DNA of 10,452 nt from contig JAIRVC010000105.1 of the NCBI GenBank assembly GCA_031254095.1, forward strand, positions 1-10,452, given 5' to 3'. The notes under the pieces are model-generated. The model had not been told where the DNA came from. It made no database searches and was given only the letters and a program-made list of their open reading frames with translations. Shown piece by piece: positions 2,176-10,354 of this stretch. The first letter of the stretch is position 1. Each line of letters begins with the position of its first letter. This stretch comes from Acidobacteriota bacterium. Its GTDB lineage: Bacteria; Acidobacteriota; UBA6911. The position numbers and the translations under genes were made by a program.

Positions 2176-2192
2176 AGGAAACGCTGATTAAA
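2176..2192 (+). repeat. Copy A of a 17-nt intergenic repeat
   Basis: AGGAAACGCTGATTAAA starts directly after the hdrA stop codon and runs into the mvhD ribosome binding site (AAGGAG, 2191-2196). It matches copy B at 2660-2676 in 14 of 17 positions and copy C (minus strand, 5515-5531) in 13 of 17. All three copies lie between genes. Function is unknown; a scrap of a dispersed repeat or a transposon end is possible. Confidence 0.55.
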
Positions 2193-2201
2193 GGAGTTGG
2201 C

Positions 2202-2639
2202 ATGGAAGCAGTACAGGAAAAAACGGCTGTTCCGGGATTCGAACCGGAAATCGTGGCGTTCTGTTGCGAGCATTGAGCGTACAGCGCCGCGGACCTGGCA
2301 GGTTCGATGAGACTCAGTTATCCGACAAACATTAAAATTGTCAAAGTTCCCTGCACCGGAAGAGTCGATGTGCTGACGATGCTCAAGGCTTTTGAAGCCG
2401 GCGCCGACGGAGTTTGCGTCGCGGGATGCCTCGAAGGAGAATGTCATTTCCTGAAGGGCAATCTGCGCGCCCGAAAGAGAGTAATGTATCTCAAGCAGTT
2501 GTTGCAGGAATTGGGAATTGAACCGGAACGCGCGGCAATATACAACCTGAGTTCCGCTCAGGGACAGCGGTTTGCCCAGATAGCGCAGGATATGACGGAC
2601 ATTATCCGCGCGCTTGGGCCGACCCCGGTCAAAGGATAG
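2202..2639 (+). CDS. mvhD: MvhD/VhuD-like iron-sulfur subunit, selenoprotein (TGA at codon 25 = Sec)
   Basis: Small [2Fe-2S] protein of the MvhD/VhuD family, which carries electrons to the HdrA flavin. The ATG at 2202 follows AAGGAG (2191-2196) by 5 nt. Translation gives FCCEH, an in-frame TGA at 2274-2276, then AYSAADLAGSMRLSYP and a normal family body (VPCTGRVD, GVCVAGCLEGECHFLKGN) to TAG at 2637. Homologues have a Cys where the TGA sits (FCCxxC-type motif), and VhuD of some methanogens is a known selenoprotein, so Sec is the natural reading. With Sec the product is 145 aa, the usual family size. A bacterial-SECIS-like hairpin follows the TGA. Conventional gene calling would start at Met36 (2307) and lose the cluster-binding N-terminus. 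Frameshift or decay is unlikely because the same frame is conserved on both sides. Confidence 0.9.
2274..2306 (+). promoter_or_regulatory. Bacterial SECIS element with its Sec-encoding UGA
   Basis: UGA occupies 2274-2276. Bases 2290-2296 (CGGACCU) pair with 2300-2306 (AGGUUCG) in a 7-bp stem with one G-U pair, closing a GGC triloop at 2297-2299. The loop begins 20 nt after the UGA and its first two bases are G. Known bacterial SECIS elements have a small apical loop with a G in the first two positions, about 16-37 nt behind the UGA, and this fits. It would bind SelB. Pairing was done by eye, with no energy calculation. Confidence 0.75.
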
Positions 2640-2707: not shown

Positions 2708-3379
2708 ATGATAGTAGGGAACAGGAAGTCGCTGGAAGAAATCCTGGAACTTGTTAAGCCCTATAAGAAAATACTGCTTCTGGGGTGCCGGGAGTGTATC
2801 ACGGTCTGCGCGGCGGGCGGCGAAAGGGAAGTCGGCGTACTTGCGTCCGAATTGAAAATAGCCCGCAAGAAAGAGGGCGGAGATATCGAAATCAAGGAAT
2901 TCACACTGGAGCGTCAGTGCGACGTGGAATATATTGATCAGATAAAGCCGTTCATTGACGAATACGAAGCCGTGGTTTCGATGGCCTGCGGTGCGGGCAT
3001 CAACTACACGGCCGACTGTTTTCCAAAGAAAATTGTCCTCCCGGCCATCAACACGACTTTTATGGGTGTATCGACCGAGCAGGGCGTCTGGAGCGAGCGG
3101 TGTCAGGGATGCGGCGAATGCATTCTGCACCTGACCGGAGGCGTCTGCCCCGTCGCCCGCTGCGCCAAGAGCATTTTCAACGGCCCCTGCGGCGGCTCGG
3201 CTAATGGCGTCTGCGAAGTCAACAAGGACACCGACTGCGCCTGGCAGTTGATAATTGACCGCTTGAAAGGCCAGGGAAAACTCGAAAACTACGAAAAGAT
3301 TATTGACATTAAAGACTGGTCCTCCGCCAGAGACGGCGGGCCGCGAACCAGAATCAGGGAAGATTTACGACTTAACTAA
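2708..3379 (+). CDS. metV: Methylenetetrahydrofolate reductase iron-sulfur subunit MetV
   Basis: MetV (MTHFR C-terminal-domain family) partners MetF in methylene-THF reductases of acetyl-CoA-pathway anaerobes and passes electrons to the MetF flavin through iron-sulfur clusters. The ATG follows a strong AGGAGG (2697-2702) by 5 nt. The 223-aa protein has an N-terminal GCRECITVC motif (Cys27, 30, 34) and a dense Cys block: C132, C135, C138, C147, C152, C161 (CQGCGEC, GGVCPVARC, NGPCGGS), with further Cys at 169 and 177. No membrane segment or signal peptide is seen. It sits directly upstream of metF and downstream of hdrA-mvhD, as expected for a MetFV-Hdr type complex. The family assignment is firm; cluster types are from family knowledge. 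Confidence 0.92.
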   Translation: MIVGNRKSLEEILELVKPYKKILLLGCRECITVCAAGGEREVGVLASELKIARKKEGGDIEIKEFTLERQCDVEYIDQIKPFIDEYEAVVSMACGAGINYTADCFPKKIVLPAINTTFMGVSTEQGVWSERCQGCGECILHLTGGVCPVARCAKSIFNGPCGGSANGVCEVNKDTDCAWQLIIDRLKGQGKLENYEKIIDIKDWSSARDGGPRTRIREDLRLN

Positions 3380-3462: not shown

Positions 3463-4386
3463 GTGAAGACGAAATCTAATATTGAGCGTCTCCTGGAAGC
3501 GGGAAAATTTGTTGTAACATCCGAATGCGGACCGCCGAGAGGCGCTGACGCTGAGGTTATTCGTAAAAAGGGAGCTTTGCTCAAAGGCGTGGTGGACGCG
3601 GTGAACGTCACCGACAACCAGACCTCCATCGTGCGCATGAGCTCGCTTTCGGCGTGCCTGATTCTGAAGGAAATGGGGATTGATCCGATCTGGCAGGTTG
3701 TCTGCCGCGACCGTAACCGCATCGCGATTCAGAGCGACATCCTTGGCGCGGCCGCGCTGGGCATCAACAATATACTTTGTCTTTCGGGCGATCATCAGAG
3801 TTTCGGCGACAACCCGAAAGCCAAGAATGTGTACGACATCGACTCAACGCAGCTTATCGGCGCAGTTAAACAGCTCAGAGACGATGGCAAATTCCTTGGC
3901 GGCGATGACGTCAAGGAGGGCAGGCCCAACCTGTTTATCGGCGCCGCGGAAAATCCTTTCGGCGATCCTTTTGAGATTCGCGCCATGCGGCTTGGAAAGA
4001 AAGTACGCGCCGGTTGCGAATTTATTCAGACCCAGGGAATCTACAATCTGGAAAAATTCGCCAAATGGATGGAGATGGTTCGCGATCTTGGCCTGCATGA
4101 GAAATGCGCTATTTTAGCGGGCGTGATTCCGCTCAAGTCCGCGGGTATGGCGAAATACATGAAGTCTTCCGTACCCGGCATGGACATTCCCGACGAGTTG
4201 ATCGACCGGCTCAAAGGCGTTCCGAAAGAAAAGCAGGGAGAGGAAGGAATCAAAATCTGCGTCGAGCAGATACAGCGGGTCAAAGAAATACCCGGCGTAC
4301 GCGGCGTCCACGTTATGGCGATTGAGTGGGAAGAAAAAGTGGCCGAAATCGTCAAGGCCGCCGGCCTTTCCCCCCGCCCTGAATAA
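3463..4386 (+). CDS. metF: Methylenetetrahydrofolate reductase catalytic subunit MetF
   Basis: FAD-containing TIM-barrel enzyme that reduces 5,10-methylene-THF to 5-methyl-THF, feeding the methyl branch of the Wood-Ljungdahl pathway. The start is GTG at 3463, supported by GGAGG (3448-3452) 10 nt upstream. The 307-aa protein shows SECGPPRGAD near the N-terminus (Glu21 aligns with the catalytic Glu of MetF), LCLSGDHQ (Asp110 in the conserved G-D motif), AAENPFGDP, GCEFIQTQGIYN and AGVIPLKS, all typical of the family. Length is normal. With MetV next door and an HdrA-MvhD pair upstream, the donor is probably reduced through MetV rather than NADH binding directly to MetF; that is inference. A strong terminator lies 26 nt after the stop. 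Confidence 0.95.
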   Translation: MKTKSNIERLLEAGKFVVTSECGPPRGADAEVIRKKGALLKGVVDAVNVTDNQTSIVRMSSLSACLILKEMGIDPIWQVVCRDRNRIAIQSDILGAAALGINNILCLSGDHQSFGDNPKAKNVYDIDSTQLIGAVKQLRDDGKFLGGDDVKEGRPNLFIGAAENPFGDPFEIRAMRLGKKVRAGCEFIQTQGIYNLEKFAKWMEMVRDLGLHEKCAILAGVIPLKSAGMAKYMKSSVPGMDIPDELIDRLKGVPKEKQGEEGIKICVEQIQRVKEIPGVRGVHVMAIEWEEKVAEIVKAAGLSPRPE

Positions 4387-4511: not shown

Positions 4512-4566
4512 GGAGAGCGGCTGACGCTCTATGAATATAACGTCTGATGAACATAACGATAGATAA
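4512..4566 (+). promoter_or_regulatory. Leader of the YitT-like gene: SD-sequestering hairpin, duplicated start and overlapping mini-ORF
   Basis: The SD-like GGAGAG (4512-4517) is partly inside a 6-bp hairpin, AGAGCG (4514-4519) with CGCTCT (4525-4530), which ends directly before an ATG at 4531. That ATG opens an 11-codon ORF, MNITSDEHNDR, ending at 4566. The real gene start at 4547 is in another frame, and its first 12 bases repeat 4531-4542 with one change, so both begin MNIT. This looks like a 16-bp tandem duplication of the start region. A regulatory role is speculative. Confidence 0.35.
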
Positions 4567-5437
4567 GGAAATTTCCGCGCGGCGCGCGATCCGGCGTCTG
4601 GCTCTTATTACATTCGGCGCCGCTTTAATGGCTTTCAATATAAACACGTTTGTACACGCTGGCGGCCTTATCCCCGGCGGTTTTACCGGCCTTACTCTGC
4701 TTATCAAGGAAATATTTCTTCGCTACCTGAACGTTACCGTTCCTTACAGCGTTATTCTTTATGTTCTGAACGCCGTACCCGCGATTTTCTGCTTTAAATT
4801 TGTCGGCAAAAAATTCACTTTGTACTCTGTATTGATGATTTTCCTTAGCGGCCTGATGACGGATTTCATGCCTGAAATGTTCATCGACGTCATTCAGCTG
4901 CATGACATTCTGCTCTCCGCGGTGTTTGGCGGTATGCTGAATGCCGCCGCGATTCTTTTGTGCCTGTTTGCCGACGCCACAAGCGGAGGTACGGATTTTA
5001 TCGCCATTGCCGTCGCAGAAAAACAGCGTAAGGATGCCTGGAATTACATTTTTGTTGGAAACTGCGCTATTCTGGTCGTTGCCGGCAGTCTTTTTACTCT
5101 GGAAAAGGCGCTGTATTCAATTATCTTTCAATTTACGACAACAATGGTCATCAACTCTCTGTACGGCGCCTATCATCAAAAGACCATCCTTGTCATAACC
5201 GCCCGTCCCACGGAGGTTTATTCGATTATCGACGAGAAAACCCACCACGGAGCAACCCTTTTAAAAGGGATCGGCATGTATAACATGGAAGAACGGAGCC
5301 TTTTGTATTCGGTGGTATATTCAAACGAGATTGCGCCGGTAATGAAAGCCATACACGCGATAGACCCCGGCGCTTTTATCAATATCATTAAAACCGAGCA
5401 GGTAAACGGCAGATTCTTCAAAAGACCCAAGGATTGA
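4547..5437 (+). CDS. YitT family integral membrane protein (YitT + DUF2179)
   Basis: Multi-pass membrane protein of the YitT/DUF161 family, whose substrate is generally unknown. Hydrophobic stretches begin at about residues 17 (LALITFGAALMAFNINTFVH), 67 (YSVILYVLNAVPAIFCF), 91 (LYSVLMIFLSGLM), 121 (LLSAVFGGMLNAAAILLCLF) and 166 (YIFVGNCAILVVAGSLF). The family motifs GGLIPGGFTGL (about 39-49) and DATSGGTDFIA (about 143-153) are present. Residues from about 213 (KTILVITARPTEV) form the soluble DUF2179 domain. At 296 aa it is full length. No good ribosome binding site lies close to the ATG at 4547. It follows the metF terminator and converges on the ATPase gene, so it is probably not part of the C1 operon. 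It ends in TGA, showing that TGA is a normal stop here. Confidence 0.9.
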   Translation: MNITIDKEISARRAIRRLALITFGAALMAFNINTFVHAGGLIPGGFTGLTLLIKEIFLRYLNVTVPYSVILYVLNAVPAIFCFKFVGKKFTLYSVLMIFLSGLMTDFMPEMFIDVIQLHDILLSAVFGGMLNAAAILLCLFADATSGGTDFIAIAVAEKQRKDAWNYIFVGNCAILVVAGSLFTLEKALYSIIFQFTTTMVINSLYGAYHQKTILVITARPTEVYSIIDEKTHHGATLLKGIGMYNMEERSLLYSVVYSNEIAPVMKAIHAIDPGAFINIIKTEQVNGRFFKRPKD

Positions 5438-5540: not shown

Positions 5541-6779
5541 CTAATACGTCATCCATTCCAGAACATTTACGATCTTTATTCCGTCATGCAGGCTTTCCAA
5601 CGGATAATCCCTGGTCAGGATGTATTTTGGATTATGGTCGGAAATCATGTTGAGCGACGCGATCTCGCGTTGGAAAGTTTCTTTGCTGCCGATGTCGTGC
5701 GACACCTGATAATACTCGGTATAACCATCTTTTACCGCCACAAAATCGACTTCCGAGCGGTTGATTTTACCTGTGTGGATCATGTACCCACGGCGAAACA
5801 GTTCCAAAAATACCGCGTTTTCGAGGATGCGCCCCATGTCGCCCTCTCTGCCGAGAAGCAGATAGCGCAGGCCGATGTCGGAAAGGTAGTATTTTGCGTT
5901 TGTCTGGAGATGCTTTTTACCTTTTATGTCGTACCTTCCTACTTTATAAAGCACGAAAGCATCAAGCAGGCCGCTTAAATAATTCTCTATCGTCGGAAGC
6001 TGAATATCTCTGCCGCCGGATTTCATCGTGTTTTGGATATTGCGGAGAGACATTTCGCTTCCGATATTATCGAACATGAATTTTATTACGCTTTCAAGCC
6101 GTGAAACATTCGCGACTTTTCTTCGCTCCACTATATCTTTCAGTACTATCGTATTATAGACGCCGCGCAGGAACATTTGAATTTGTTCATTGTCCCAGCC
6201 GTTTTTTTTGTTCAACAACGAATTGCTTTCAGCAGTCAGTTGAACAGTGTAGGGAAATGAACTGTTGCGAAGGTAATCGCCGAACATTTTGTCCGGCGCG
6301 GCGTTATAAGGATACGCAGAGACGTATTCCTTAAATGATAAAGGAAGCATGTGTATTTCAACGTACCTCCCGGATAATAGCGTCGCGAACTCGCCCGAAA
6401 GCATTCTTGAGTTTGAGCCGGTTAAATACAAATCGATATTTTCCGCCAGCCGCAGACTGTTTACCGCCTTTTGAAATTCGGGAACGCTTTGAATTTCGTC
6501 GAGGAAGACGTAATTCATTGTATCGCCGACGCAATTTTCCTTAATATGGTTGTGCAGAACCCGCCAGTCAAGAAATTTTTCATTCGCCGCGTCTTCAAAA
6601 TTTATATCAAGAATCCGCTTGCCGGAAACGCCGTTTTTCTGTAGATACCTCTGGTACAGCTTAAACAGTGTCGATTTTCCACAGCGGCGGATTCCCGTTA
6701 TTATCTTAACGACATCGGATTTATCCTTCCAACCCGCCAACCTCATCAAATAATCCGGCCGCTCTATCGCTTTTTGCAT
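5541..6779 (-). CDS. AAA_14/DUF4143 family ATPase
   Basis: Cytoplasmic P-loop ATPase of the archaeal-ATPase-like AAA_14 + DUF4143 group; the biological role of the family is poorly known. The 412-aa product has Walker A GIRRCGKST (29-37), Walker B NYVFLDEIQ (89-97, Asp94-Glu95), a sensor-like LTGSNS (119-124) and GRYVEI with Arg138. The C-terminal half carries the DUF4143 region (IENYLSGLLDAFVLYKVGRYD, LSDIGLRYLLLG) and a nuclease-like fold motif, LENAVFLEL, then SEVDFVAVKDG and YYQVS, where the catalytic-type Lys is absent. The start ATG (6777-6779) has only a weak GGG upstream. Its sequence looks more A/T-rich than its neighbours (line 6121-6180 has 26 G+C in 60), and it is oriented against the flanking genes, which suggests an accessory, possibly acquired gene. 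Autoregulation through the upstream repeats is possible. Confidence 0.9.
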   Translation of the reverse strand: MQKAIERPDYLMRLAGWKDKSDVVKIITGIRRCGKSTLFKLYQRYLQKNGVSGKRILDINFEDAANEKFLDWRVLHNHIKENCVGDTMNYVFLDEIQSVPEFQKAVNSLRLAENIDLYLTGSNSRMLSGEFATLLSGRYVEIHMLPLSFKEYVSAYPYNAAPDKMFGDYLRNSSFPYTVQLTAESNSLLNKKNGWDNEQIQMFLRGVYNTIVLKDIVERRKVANVSRLESVIKFMFDNIGSEMSLRNIQNTMKSGGRDIQLPTIENYLSGLLDAFVLYKVGRYDIKGKKHLQTNAKYYLSDIGLRYLLLGREGDMGRILENAVFLELFRRGYMIHTGKINRSEVDFVAVKDGYTEYYQVSHDIGSKETFQREIASLNMISDHNPKYILTRDYPLESLHDGIKIVNVLEWMTY

Positions 6780-7028: not shown

Positions 7029-8396
7029 ATGGACATAACCGACACAATTTGCGCGCTTTCCACCCCTCCGGGGCGTTCAGGCATCGCCTTTGTGCGCCTA
7101 AGCGGCGCGGATTGCCCGGCCGTATTGCGGCAAATCACCGGAAAAGCGCCGCCGGAGCCGCGAAAAGCCTGTTTGAGACGCCTCAGAGACCCGCGTTCGG
7201 GCGAAGAAATCGACGAAGCGGTTGTTACATTTTTCAAAGCGCCTCATTCATACACAGGCGAAAATCTGGCGGAAATTTCCCCGCACGGTAATCCGTCGAT
7301 TATTGCGGCGCTTCTTGATGTCCTGTGTCATCTTGGAGCGAGGCTTGCGTTGCCGGGCGAATTTACGATGCGGGCGTTTCTGCGCGGCCGGATCGACCTC
7401 GCCGGCGCGGAGGCTGTACGTGACATTATCGAAGCCAGGACGCTTTATCAGGCGCGCGTGGCGGGACGGCAGCGGGGCGGAGCGTTGGCAAAAGAACTTC
7501 AGCCGGTCAAAGACAGGCTGATCGAAGCCATTGTGAATCTGGAATCGGCGGTGGAATTCGCGGAAGAAGACCTTACAACGGCTTCGCGCGAAGCGATTTT
7601 TGATCTGCTCGGCGGCGCGGCACAACGCGCGGAAAAATTGATTAATTCCTTCCGCAAAGGCCGTTTTGTCCGCGAAGGCTTCACCCTTGCGATCGTCGGG
7701 CCGCCCAACGCGGGAAAAAGCAGCGTCTTTAACGCCCTGCTTGGACGCGACCGGTCAATCGTCACGGATATTCCGGGAACGACGCGCGATCTGGTGTCGG
7801 AAGACGCGGCCATCGGCGGCATTCCGGTGCGGCTCGAAGATACGGCGGGATTGCGAGCGGACGGCGGTGAAATCGAAAAACTTGGGATGGAGCGCAGCCG
7901 CCGGGCCGCGGCGGACGCGGACGCCGTTTTACTGGTTGTGGACGCGAGCCGGAATCTTTCGGAAGAAGAATACGGCCTGCGGCGGCAGTTGACCTCTCCC
8001 GCGGGAATTGTCATTTTCAACAAATCAGACCTGCCCGCGCGCGTTACGGAAGAGGAAAAACAGGCGCTTTCCGGCTCATGGCCGCATGTCCACACTTCCG
8101 CAAAAACCGGACATGGAATAGACGAGGCGCGAAACGTAATTTTGAAACAGATTTCCGGCGGGGAAGAACCGGATCGTGATGATTTTCTGATTACCAATCT
8201 GCGGCATTGTCAGGCGCTGGAAAAGGCCCTGACCGGTATGGAACGCGGCGCTGGCGCGCTTAAAAATGGGATGTCGGAAGAATTCGCCCTCTTTGATCTT
8301 CGCAAGGCTCTTGACGCGCTTGGGGAAATCACCGGCGAGACGAACACGGAAAATCTGCTGGATGAAATTTTCTCCCGTTTCTGTATTGGAAAGTAA
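7029..8396 (+). CDS. mnmE: tRNA uridine-5-carboxymethylaminomethyl modification GTPase MnmE
   Basis: MnmE, with MnmG, installs the 5-carboxymethylaminomethyl group on wobble U34 of certain tRNAs using a folate C1 unit and GTP hydrolysis. The 455-aa protein has the N-terminal folate-binding domain starting [20 protein letters not shown], a helical domain, and an inserted G domain: G1 GPPNAGKSS (224-232), G2 region IPGTTRD, G3 DTAG (271-274), G4 NKSD (331-334). It ends in the conserved FCIGK with its catalytic-type Cys. The start at 7029 is fixed by a TAA two codons upstream in the same frame and by alignment to the family N-terminus, yet no ribosome binding site precedes it. It lies 5 nt before mnmG. 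The usual upstream neighbours (rpmH, rnpA, yidC, jag) are absent, replaced by the ATPase gene. Confidence 0.97.
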
Positions 8397-8401
8397 AAGG
8401 A

Positions 8402-10354
8402 ATGCCACAGGATTTGAATTATTACGATGTCGCCGTTGTCGGCGGCGGTCACGCGGGATGCGAAGCCGCCGCCGCCGCCGCCCGCATGGGCGCGCGAACG
8501 CTTCTTTGCACGCTTGACCTTTCGCGCCTTGCGCAGATGTCCTGCAATCCGGCTGTCGGCGGCATCGCCAAGGGACATCTTGTACGGGAAATCGACGCCG
8601 CGGGCGGCATCATGGGCGAAGTTGCCGACAATACCGGAATACAGTTTCGCCTGCTGAACGCGAGCCGCGGCCCGGCGGTTCAAGCTCCACGCTGCCAGTC
8701 AGATAAGTATAAGTATATCAAATACATAAGCGAATTATTGCGCCGCGTTCCCGATCTTTCACTCCGCGAGGCGGAGGTCGTTGGGCTGATCATCGAAAAT
8801 GACACAGTAAAGGGAATCGAACTCGGCGACGGCGGCAGGATTCGCTGCCGGTCGGTAATCCTGACGACTGGAACCTTTCTGAACGGCGTGATTCGTATCG
8901 GCGACAAAAGCTGGACGGCGGGAAGAATCGGCGAAGCGTCGTCCATTCCGCTGGCGGCGGCCTTGAGGGAACGCGGTTTTAACCTTGGCCGTCTAAAAAC
9001 CGGAACGCCGCCGAGGCTGGACAAAAACACCATTGATTTTTCGCTGTTTGAAGAACAGAAAGGAGACATAAACCCGGTTTTCTTTTCTTCGCGAACCCGC
9101 GCCGCCAGTTTGCCGCAGATTTCCTGCTACCTTGGTTACACCAACGCCCGGCTTCATGCCGTCATACGGGAAAATCTCGAAAAATCGGCGCTATACGGCG
9201 GTCACATCACCGGCGTCGGCCCACGCTATTGCCCAAGCGTGGAAGATAAAATTGTGAAATTCGCGGATAAAGAGCGGCATCAGGTTTTTCTTGAACCGGA
9301 AGGACTGGACGCGGACGAAATCTACCTCAACGGCATGTCTACGAGTATGCCCGTCGAAGTGCAGAAAAAAATGGTCGGGGCGATTCCGGGGCTTGAAAAC
9401 GCGCGTATACTCCGCCCGGCTTACGCGATTGAATATGATTTTGTCGATCCGCGCGAGCTTTATCCTACGCTAGAAACAAAGCGCGTCGGAGGGCTCTACC
9501 ACGCGGGACAGATCAACGGCACTACCGGCTACGAAGAAGCGGCGGCGCAGGGATTTGTCGCGGGCATCAACGCCGCTTTGAAAGCGCAGGCAAAGGAACC
9601 CGTCATTTTTTCGCGTGAGGAAAGCTATATCGGCATTATGATCGACGATCTCGTAACCCGCGGAGTTGATGAGCCCTACCGTATGTTTACATCGCGTTCG
9701 GAATTCAGGCTGCTGCTGCGCATTGACAACGCGGATCGGCGCTTGCGTCCGCTTGGACACCGTCTTGGCCTGGTTCCGGAAGACGATTACCACGAGTTTG
9801 AGAAAAAATATAATTCCGTCGAGCAATTAAGAAATTTTTTGAAGCAGCATCGCTGGCGACCCGAGGAAACGCCGTGTCCGGGACTCATGGAAAAACCCGG
9901 CATAAGCGAAGCGAAAGGGGCGACGCTTGAGGAAATTTTACGGCGTCCGGAAGTTCTTTTGCGCGATATGGAGCCGCTTTTACGCCTGAACAATCAATGG
10001 CCTGATTCCGAGGAAGTCCGGCGGGCGGCGGAAATTGAGGTTCGCTATGAGGGGTATATCCAGCAGCAGTTGAAAGACGCCGCGAAAATGCGCCGGATGA
10101 GCGCCCGAAAGATTCCCGCCGGCTTTGACTACAACACGGTGGACGGCCTCAACCGGGAAATAAAGGAAAAGCTTAACCGGATACGCCCGGCGGATATAGC
10201 CATGGCCGGAAGAATTCCCGGCGTTACGCCCGCCGCCGTATCAATAATTAACGTACAACTGGAAATCCTGCGGCGGCGGGCGCGGGGCGGGGTAATTGAT
10301 AGCGACGAATATAAGGACAACTTGAAAAATGTACCCCACCCCTCCGCTCCGTAG
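8402..10354 (+). CDS. mnmG: tRNA uridine-5-carboxymethylaminomethyl modification enzyme MnmG (GidA)
   Basis: FAD- and NADH-dependent partner of MnmE in tRNA U34 modification. The 650-aa protein begins with the Rossmann motif [12 protein letters not shown] (GGGHAG at 14-19), then [16 protein letters not shown] (Cys48), [57 protein letters not shown] (Cys277), [28 protein letters not shown] and [15 protein letters not shown]. The C-terminal helical domain that contacts MnmE and tRNA is complete, with [19 protein letters not shown] near the end. Length is slightly above the usual 620-630. The ATG abuts an AAAGGA and also has GGAAAG further upstream; the 5-nt gap to mnmE indicates cotranscription. 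A parS site follows 3 bp after the stop. Confidence 0.97.

Follow-up and report, generated by a model that had tools for sequence, protein, structure and literature searches.

The mvhD gene of an Acidobacteriota bacterium (assembly GCA_031254095.1, contig JAIRVC010000105.1) raises the question of whether a TGA codon within a conserved reading frame is read as selenocysteine (Sec), or whether it ends a shorter product, marks a decaying gene or is read as another amino acid. The window, i.e., the whole stretch of 10,452 nucleotides that was analysed, carries the gene order hdrA-mvhD-metV-metF (Table 1). The mvhD frame runs from ATG 2202 to TAG 2637-2639 and has a single in-frame TGA, codon 25, giving 145 amino acids when TGA is translated as U. 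The gene (2202-2639) almost certainly encodes a selenoprotein MvhD in which UGA codon 25 is decoded as Sec; the reductase complex to which it is assigned, and the function of that complex, are less sure than the decoding.

Table 1. Features of the mvhD region, in window coordinates.
Feature	Coordinates	Strand	Basis
hdrA, C-terminal 724 aa, 5' end lost at contig end	1..2175	+	NCBIfam HdrA2, E 2.9e-176
Ribosome binding site of mvhD, AGGAG	2192..2196	+	Read from sequence
mvhD (frhD/flpD), predicted selenoprotein, 145 aa, Sec25	2202..2639	+	Translation, PF02662, homologues
TGA codon, predicted to be read as Sec, CxxU = C22-E-H-U25	2274..2276	+	TGA/Cys alternation among homologous loci
Putative SECIS-type hairpin GGACCUGGCAGGUUC, 6 pairs, loop GGC	2291..2305	+	Synonymous-site conservation, pairing in TGA genes
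metV, PF12225 (methylene-THF reductase C-terminal family)	2708..3379	+	E 1.4e-37
metF, methylene-tetrahydrofolate reductase	3463..4386	+	PF02219, E 1.1e-40

The window hdrA has Fer4 and Pyr_redox_2 domains (Pfam), and its NCBIfam HdrA2 score of 588 bits misses the 1100-bit cut-off, the gene being truncated by the contig end. The window metV has no NCBIfam match. Residues 17-139 of the mvhD product align with positions 1-123 of the 123 of profile PF02662, FlpD (E 1.7e-49; 167 bits, cut-off 22.3), and the match therefore spans codon 25. The reading of the earlier note, in which the frame runs from a good ATG with a ribosome binding site through the TGA into a full MvhD body, is thus borne out. 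The NCBIfam VhuD model matches the product at E 3.2e-45 and 153.5 bits, under its curated cut-off of 215; judged by these profile scores, the window MvhD appears to be related to VhuD but is not filed under it.

Translation table 11 leaves an open frame of 110 aa that begins with Met36 at 2307. The protein database entry for the window contig (P0005) is this 110-aa form, as the earlier note had predicted for standard annotation, and database forms of 110-115 aa start at the same Met in P0005, P0007, P0009, and P0012. Such entries would agree with translation from Met36 or some other internal start, giving a shorter MvhD that lacks CxxU, with the TGA ending a short upstream peptide. They would, however, also be expected of any gene finder that stops at TGA. 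An AGGAG precedes ATG 2202, residues 13-35 are conserved at the protein level whether the gene has TGA or Cys, and the synonymous sites of the hairpin described below are conserved in TGA genes only; an internal start is very improbable. With the full-length selenoprotein as the preferred product, a gene finder halting at the TGA trims MvhD to Met36 and loses the CxxU motif, so that a selenium dependence of methylene-THF reduction is easily overlooked in these Acidobacteriota and Thermodesulfobacteriota.

Homologous loci were taken as the best 80 of 111 relatives from a protein scan of species genomes. Among these 80, codon 25 is TGA in 48, TGC in 21, and TGT in 11 (32 Cys in total), proportions that are not those of nature, as the loci were drawn with peptide patterns of the window query. 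The codon-25 table also takes the window and two paralogues of its own genome, L016 (TGT) and the remote L018 (GGC). As the earlier note required of its reading, homologues have Cys or Sec at this position, with few and remote exceptions (Gly in L018; Ser in L163, L164, and L165). A nonsense change or sequencing error in a decaying mvhD gene would be in keeping with the 110-aa frame, which is all that table 11 leaves, and with the missing selA of the own assembly (see below). It is nevertheless very unlikely because the same TGA is shared among loci (48 of the best 80 others, and nine of the ten genomes of the genus, own included); the protein downstream of the TGA is conserved, and the synonymous sites near codon 25 are frozen.

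Residue 25 is Cys in the near relatives P0002-P0004, which are 87-90% identical. Together with the window they represent a recent Sec/Cys switch and useful natural pairs, and if Sec binds a cluster, these closely similar pairs offer a direct test of selenium at an iron-sulfur site. Sec is dispensable for the complex, since P0002-P0004 and 11 metV-linked homologues have Cys.

A bacterial SECIS element is expected just downstream of its TGA. The hairpin of the window starts 14 bases past the TGA codon, and it was assessed by comparing synonymous sites between 32 Cys genes and 49 TGA genes, one of which is the window's own. At the third bases of codons 30-34, entropy is 0, 0, 0, 0.14, and 0.14 in the TGA genes, and 1.87, 1.00, 1.06, 1.44, and 1.56 in the Cys genes; third bases of codons 26-29 and 38-49 are variable in both sets. 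The frozen stretch GGACCTGGCAGGTTC (window 2291-2305) is identical in 46 of the 49 TGA genes, and Arg37 is encoded by AGG or AGA in 48 of them and mainly by CGN in the Cys genes. All six hairpin pairs are present in 48/49 TGA genes vs 1/33 Cys genes (L016 counted). In 2000 random draws of codons from the Cys genes, the mean hairpin stability of the TGA genes was reached in 2.1%. Folded alone, the 57 bases around codon 25 show no exceptional stability (z +1.00; of 200 shuffles, 165 were as stable or more so); the minimum-energy structure differs from the hairpin, and the centroid has five of the six hairpin pairs. The Rfam search gave no SECIS match and four sub-threshold matches, all to families other than SECIS. 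The evidence for a SECIS thus lies in the synonymous sites, since the single-sequence fold gave no support, and it is by comparative conservation that the hairpin is identified as the probable SECIS directing Sec at codon 25.

The window's own assembly (2.09 Mb, 399 contigs, 76% complete) holds a tRNA-Sec (70.6 bits vs cut-off 47; called by ARAGORN as tRNA-SeC with anticodon tca), a SelB (375 bits, over cut-off), and a SelD (370 bits, over cut-off; L014:228-1286, minus strand). The selD gene itself has an in-frame TGA within the motif UAAK, so that the protein is probably a Sec-containing selenophosphate synthetase. In searches of 14 control genomes for tRNA-Sec, SelB, and SelD, all 14 gave matches at the loose threshold, and 5, 2, and 2, respectively, exceeded the cut-offs; it is therefore the cut-offs that carry this evidence. 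Of the four genes that the earlier note had named for such a system, selB, selC, and selD were accordingly found, and selA, the lack of which the earlier note would count against Sec in a complete genome, had no match in the 76% complete assembly. Across 60 genomes (own included) selA was matched in 50, in 49 of them over cut-off, and all nine other genomes of the window's genus have it over cut-off. Missing data are the likeliest reason for its absence from the own assembly.

That UGA has been reassigned, or is read as Trp or Cys instead of Sec, would account for the open frame and for nothing else among the observations. Against it stand the tRNA-Sec, SelB, and SelD, the Cys at position 25 of homologues with a hairpin downstream of the TGA, and the continued use of UGA as a stop nearby, where the YitT gene at 4547-5437 ends in TGA; such a reading is extremely improbable. 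Decoding as Sec, as proposed in the earlier note, is strongly supported: the codon 25 shared as TGA or Cys, the hairpin frozen in TGA genes only, the tRNA-Sec, SelB, and SelD, and the selA of the genus mark mvhD as a selenoprotein gene and not a pseudogene. UGA codon 25 would be decoded by tRNA-Sec and SelB, steered by the hairpin 14 bases after the codon.

Selenoproteins of this family are known. The following statements refer to those parts of each paper that were available. In PMC1794560, 19 FrhD selenoproteins are given, from organisms including Deltaproteobacteria and Clostridia, and FrhD/MvhD/VhuD with CxxU are described as an experimentally verified family (PMC13188914). A Sec-containing MvhD has been called in Desulfobacterium autotrophicum (PMC2702500) and Desulfococcus multivorans (PMC5109826). 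FrhD and HdrA selenoproteins are listed for Moorella without locus (PMC1794560), and the Sec genes of two Sporomusa were annotated by hand, without gene names (PMC11385720). The window MvhD resembles this family of methanogens, Deltaproteobacteria, and Clostridia in its PF02662 domain, its CxxU motif, and the alternation of Sec with Cys. Known members, as described in the available text of these sources, lie beside hdrA/hdrL, hydrogenase or formate dehydrogenase genes, whereas the window mvhD lies between hdrA and metVF, in Acidobacteriota. MvhD/FrhD selenoproteins with CxxU are thus already known, bacteria included, and the window provides a further, well-supported example; less documented are the metV linkage of TGA-25 genes, their nesting in a Thermodesulfobacteriota clade, and, in some relatives, a TGA at a second conserved Cys, position 76. 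No statement of a selenoprotein MvhD in a metVF complex, or in Acidobacteriota, was found in the literature covered, in which subscription papers are mostly missing, and absence is not proven. No word starting with "seleno" occurs in PMC9430772 or PMC13040438 as available.

The position of MvhD between HdrA and MetVF (next to MetVF in the earlier note) is supported by the Pfam domains and by the gene order in the window and its relatives. In relative L020, hdrC and hdrB (Fer4_17 and CCG proteins) are followed by hdrA (1499 aa), mvhD, metV, and metF, and in L019, hdrB by a complete hdrA (1505 aa), mvhD, metV, and metF. The complete hdrCBA-mvhD-metVF set is seen in a relative only, because hdrC and hdrB of the window would lie past the contig end. 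According to the available part of PMC9430772, the gene set of L020 is that of the HdrCBA-MvhD-MetVF reductase of Moorella thermoacetica and Sporomusa ovata, and the HdrA proteins of L020 and L019 are near in size to the Moorella HdrA, which is cited there to residue 1487 and as 162.8 kDa.

A metV match within 3500 bases downstream was found for all 44 assessable TGA-25 genes and for 11 of 30 Cys genes (Fisher value 2.6e-10, relatedness of the loci ignored). The base of this comparison is 81 loci (the 80 and the window), of which five TGA and two Cys loci were too short. In 42 of the 44 TGA genes, mvhD and metV are separated by 244 bases or fewer; in the other two, L091 and L094, the gap is about 1,560 bases and the MetV proteins are also the least alike (43%). 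Cultured bacteria that have TGA-25 with metVF include Desulfoferrobacter suflitae (L075) and Desulfoprunum benzoelyticum (L091).

By homology and gene order, mvhD would sit in an operon of the hdrCBA-mvhD-metVF type of an Acidobacteriota genus, and its product probably serves as the [2Fe-2S] shuttle in a methylene-THF reductase complex of the Moorella type (HdrCBA-MvhD-MetVF) and would pass electrons to or from HdrA. Sec would replace the second Cys of a CxxC near the presumed cluster. It may alter the potential of that cluster or protect it; the tuning of an iron-sulfur site feeding HdrA that was suggested in the earlier note may be read in this sense.

An acetogenic role with CODH/ACS in the Wood-Ljungdahl pathway is doubtful, since CdhC (PF03598, acetyl-CoA synthase domain) occurs in only two of the ten genomes of the genus, vs nine of ten that have a TGA-25 MvhD with metV. 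Formyl-THF synthetase (FTHFS) occurs in nine of the ten, and no CdhC was found in the own, incomplete assembly. From this distribution, much of the genus probably uses the complex for non-acetogenic C1 metabolism, e.g., the oxidation of methyl-THF or the use of methylene-THF as electron acceptor.

In the window's genus the TGA-25 gene is followed by a metV match in each of the nine genomes that have it, own included, and no TGA-25 was found outside this genus in 396 Acidobacteriota genomes among FlpD matches of E 1e-42 or better. Five weaker and remoter FlpD matches have an in-frame TGA (G001:C168, G007:C227, G008:C60, G009:C211, and G058:C95). A tree, rooted by midpoint only, was built from 51 joined MvhD-MetV-MetF rows (43 TGA, 8 Cys); the other 30 of the 81 loci, in which one or more of the three genes was missing or too short, were left out. 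The tree requires four Sec/Cys changes. The four Acidobacteriota rows (window included) form one clade (100/99), nested within a clade of 20 TGA rows, the other 16 of which are titled Thermodesulfobacteriota or its families, Deltaproteobacteria, or uncultured bacterium. This nesting in a mainly Thermodesulfobacteriota clade suggests that the operon was exchanged laterally once between Acidobacteriota and Thermodesulfobacteriota. With the midpoint root, exchange into Acidobacteriota would be the simpler reading.

TGA also occurs at a second position, 76, in L106, L108, L109, L159, L160, and the second MvhD copy of L075 (L075:2080-2487), lying about 1.5 kb inside the first five of these loci. 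A pattern search for TGA at 76 matched 46 of 396 genomes, of which the five coinciding with FlpD matches were counted (G008, G031, G058, G070, and G082). Every position-76 TGA is followed by a hairpin, around CCTGGAAGG. The form ATTACCTGGAAGGTAAT is present in five copies, three of them from one genus, and that of L106 is ATTTCCTGGAAGGAAAT, which differs on both sides of one pair. A metV match lies downstream of all these genes except the L075 copy. In L106, a metVF-linked bacterial gene from the genus of the window, TGA stands at 25 as well as at 76; L106 can be likened, by description only, to some archaeal FrhD/VhuD, for which multiple Sec residues are reported in the available part of PMC13188914.

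In an alignment of 124 rows, some genes being present twice, Cys is invariant at residues 22, 51, and 81; residue 76 is always Cys or Sec, and so is residue 25 apart from a single Gly. Among solved structures, the MvhD proteins of 5ODC and 7BKB are related to the window MvhD by sequence. Five near-invariant cysteines are one above the need of a [2Fe-2S] cluster. Such a cluster is carried by the MvhD of methanogens, according to the available parts of PMC6019823 and PMC12350162. A tentative and rather unlikely generalization is that selection for selenium in HdrCBA-MvhD-MetVF reductases acts on the cluster site of MvhD and not on one fixed residue, so that Sec is placed at 25, at 76, or in one genome at both, each with its own SECIS hairpin. 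If residues 25 and 76 were both cluster ligands, these proteins would be a natural case of Fe-Se bonding, in a [2Fe-2S] cluster situated at the entry point of a bifurcating flavoenzyme.

Besides its double-TGA MvhD, genome G008 has Cys-only copies, L162 and L167, which adjoin hdrA, L167 adjoining a metV-like gene as well; these are possible selenium-free isoforms. Downstream of metF, the window carries a gene for a YitT-family membrane protein with DUF2179 (plus strand), the TGA-terminated gene mentioned above, an AAA_14/DUF4143 ATPase gene (5541-6779, minus strand), and the adjacent tRNA modification genes mnmE and mnmG (7029-10354, plus strand).
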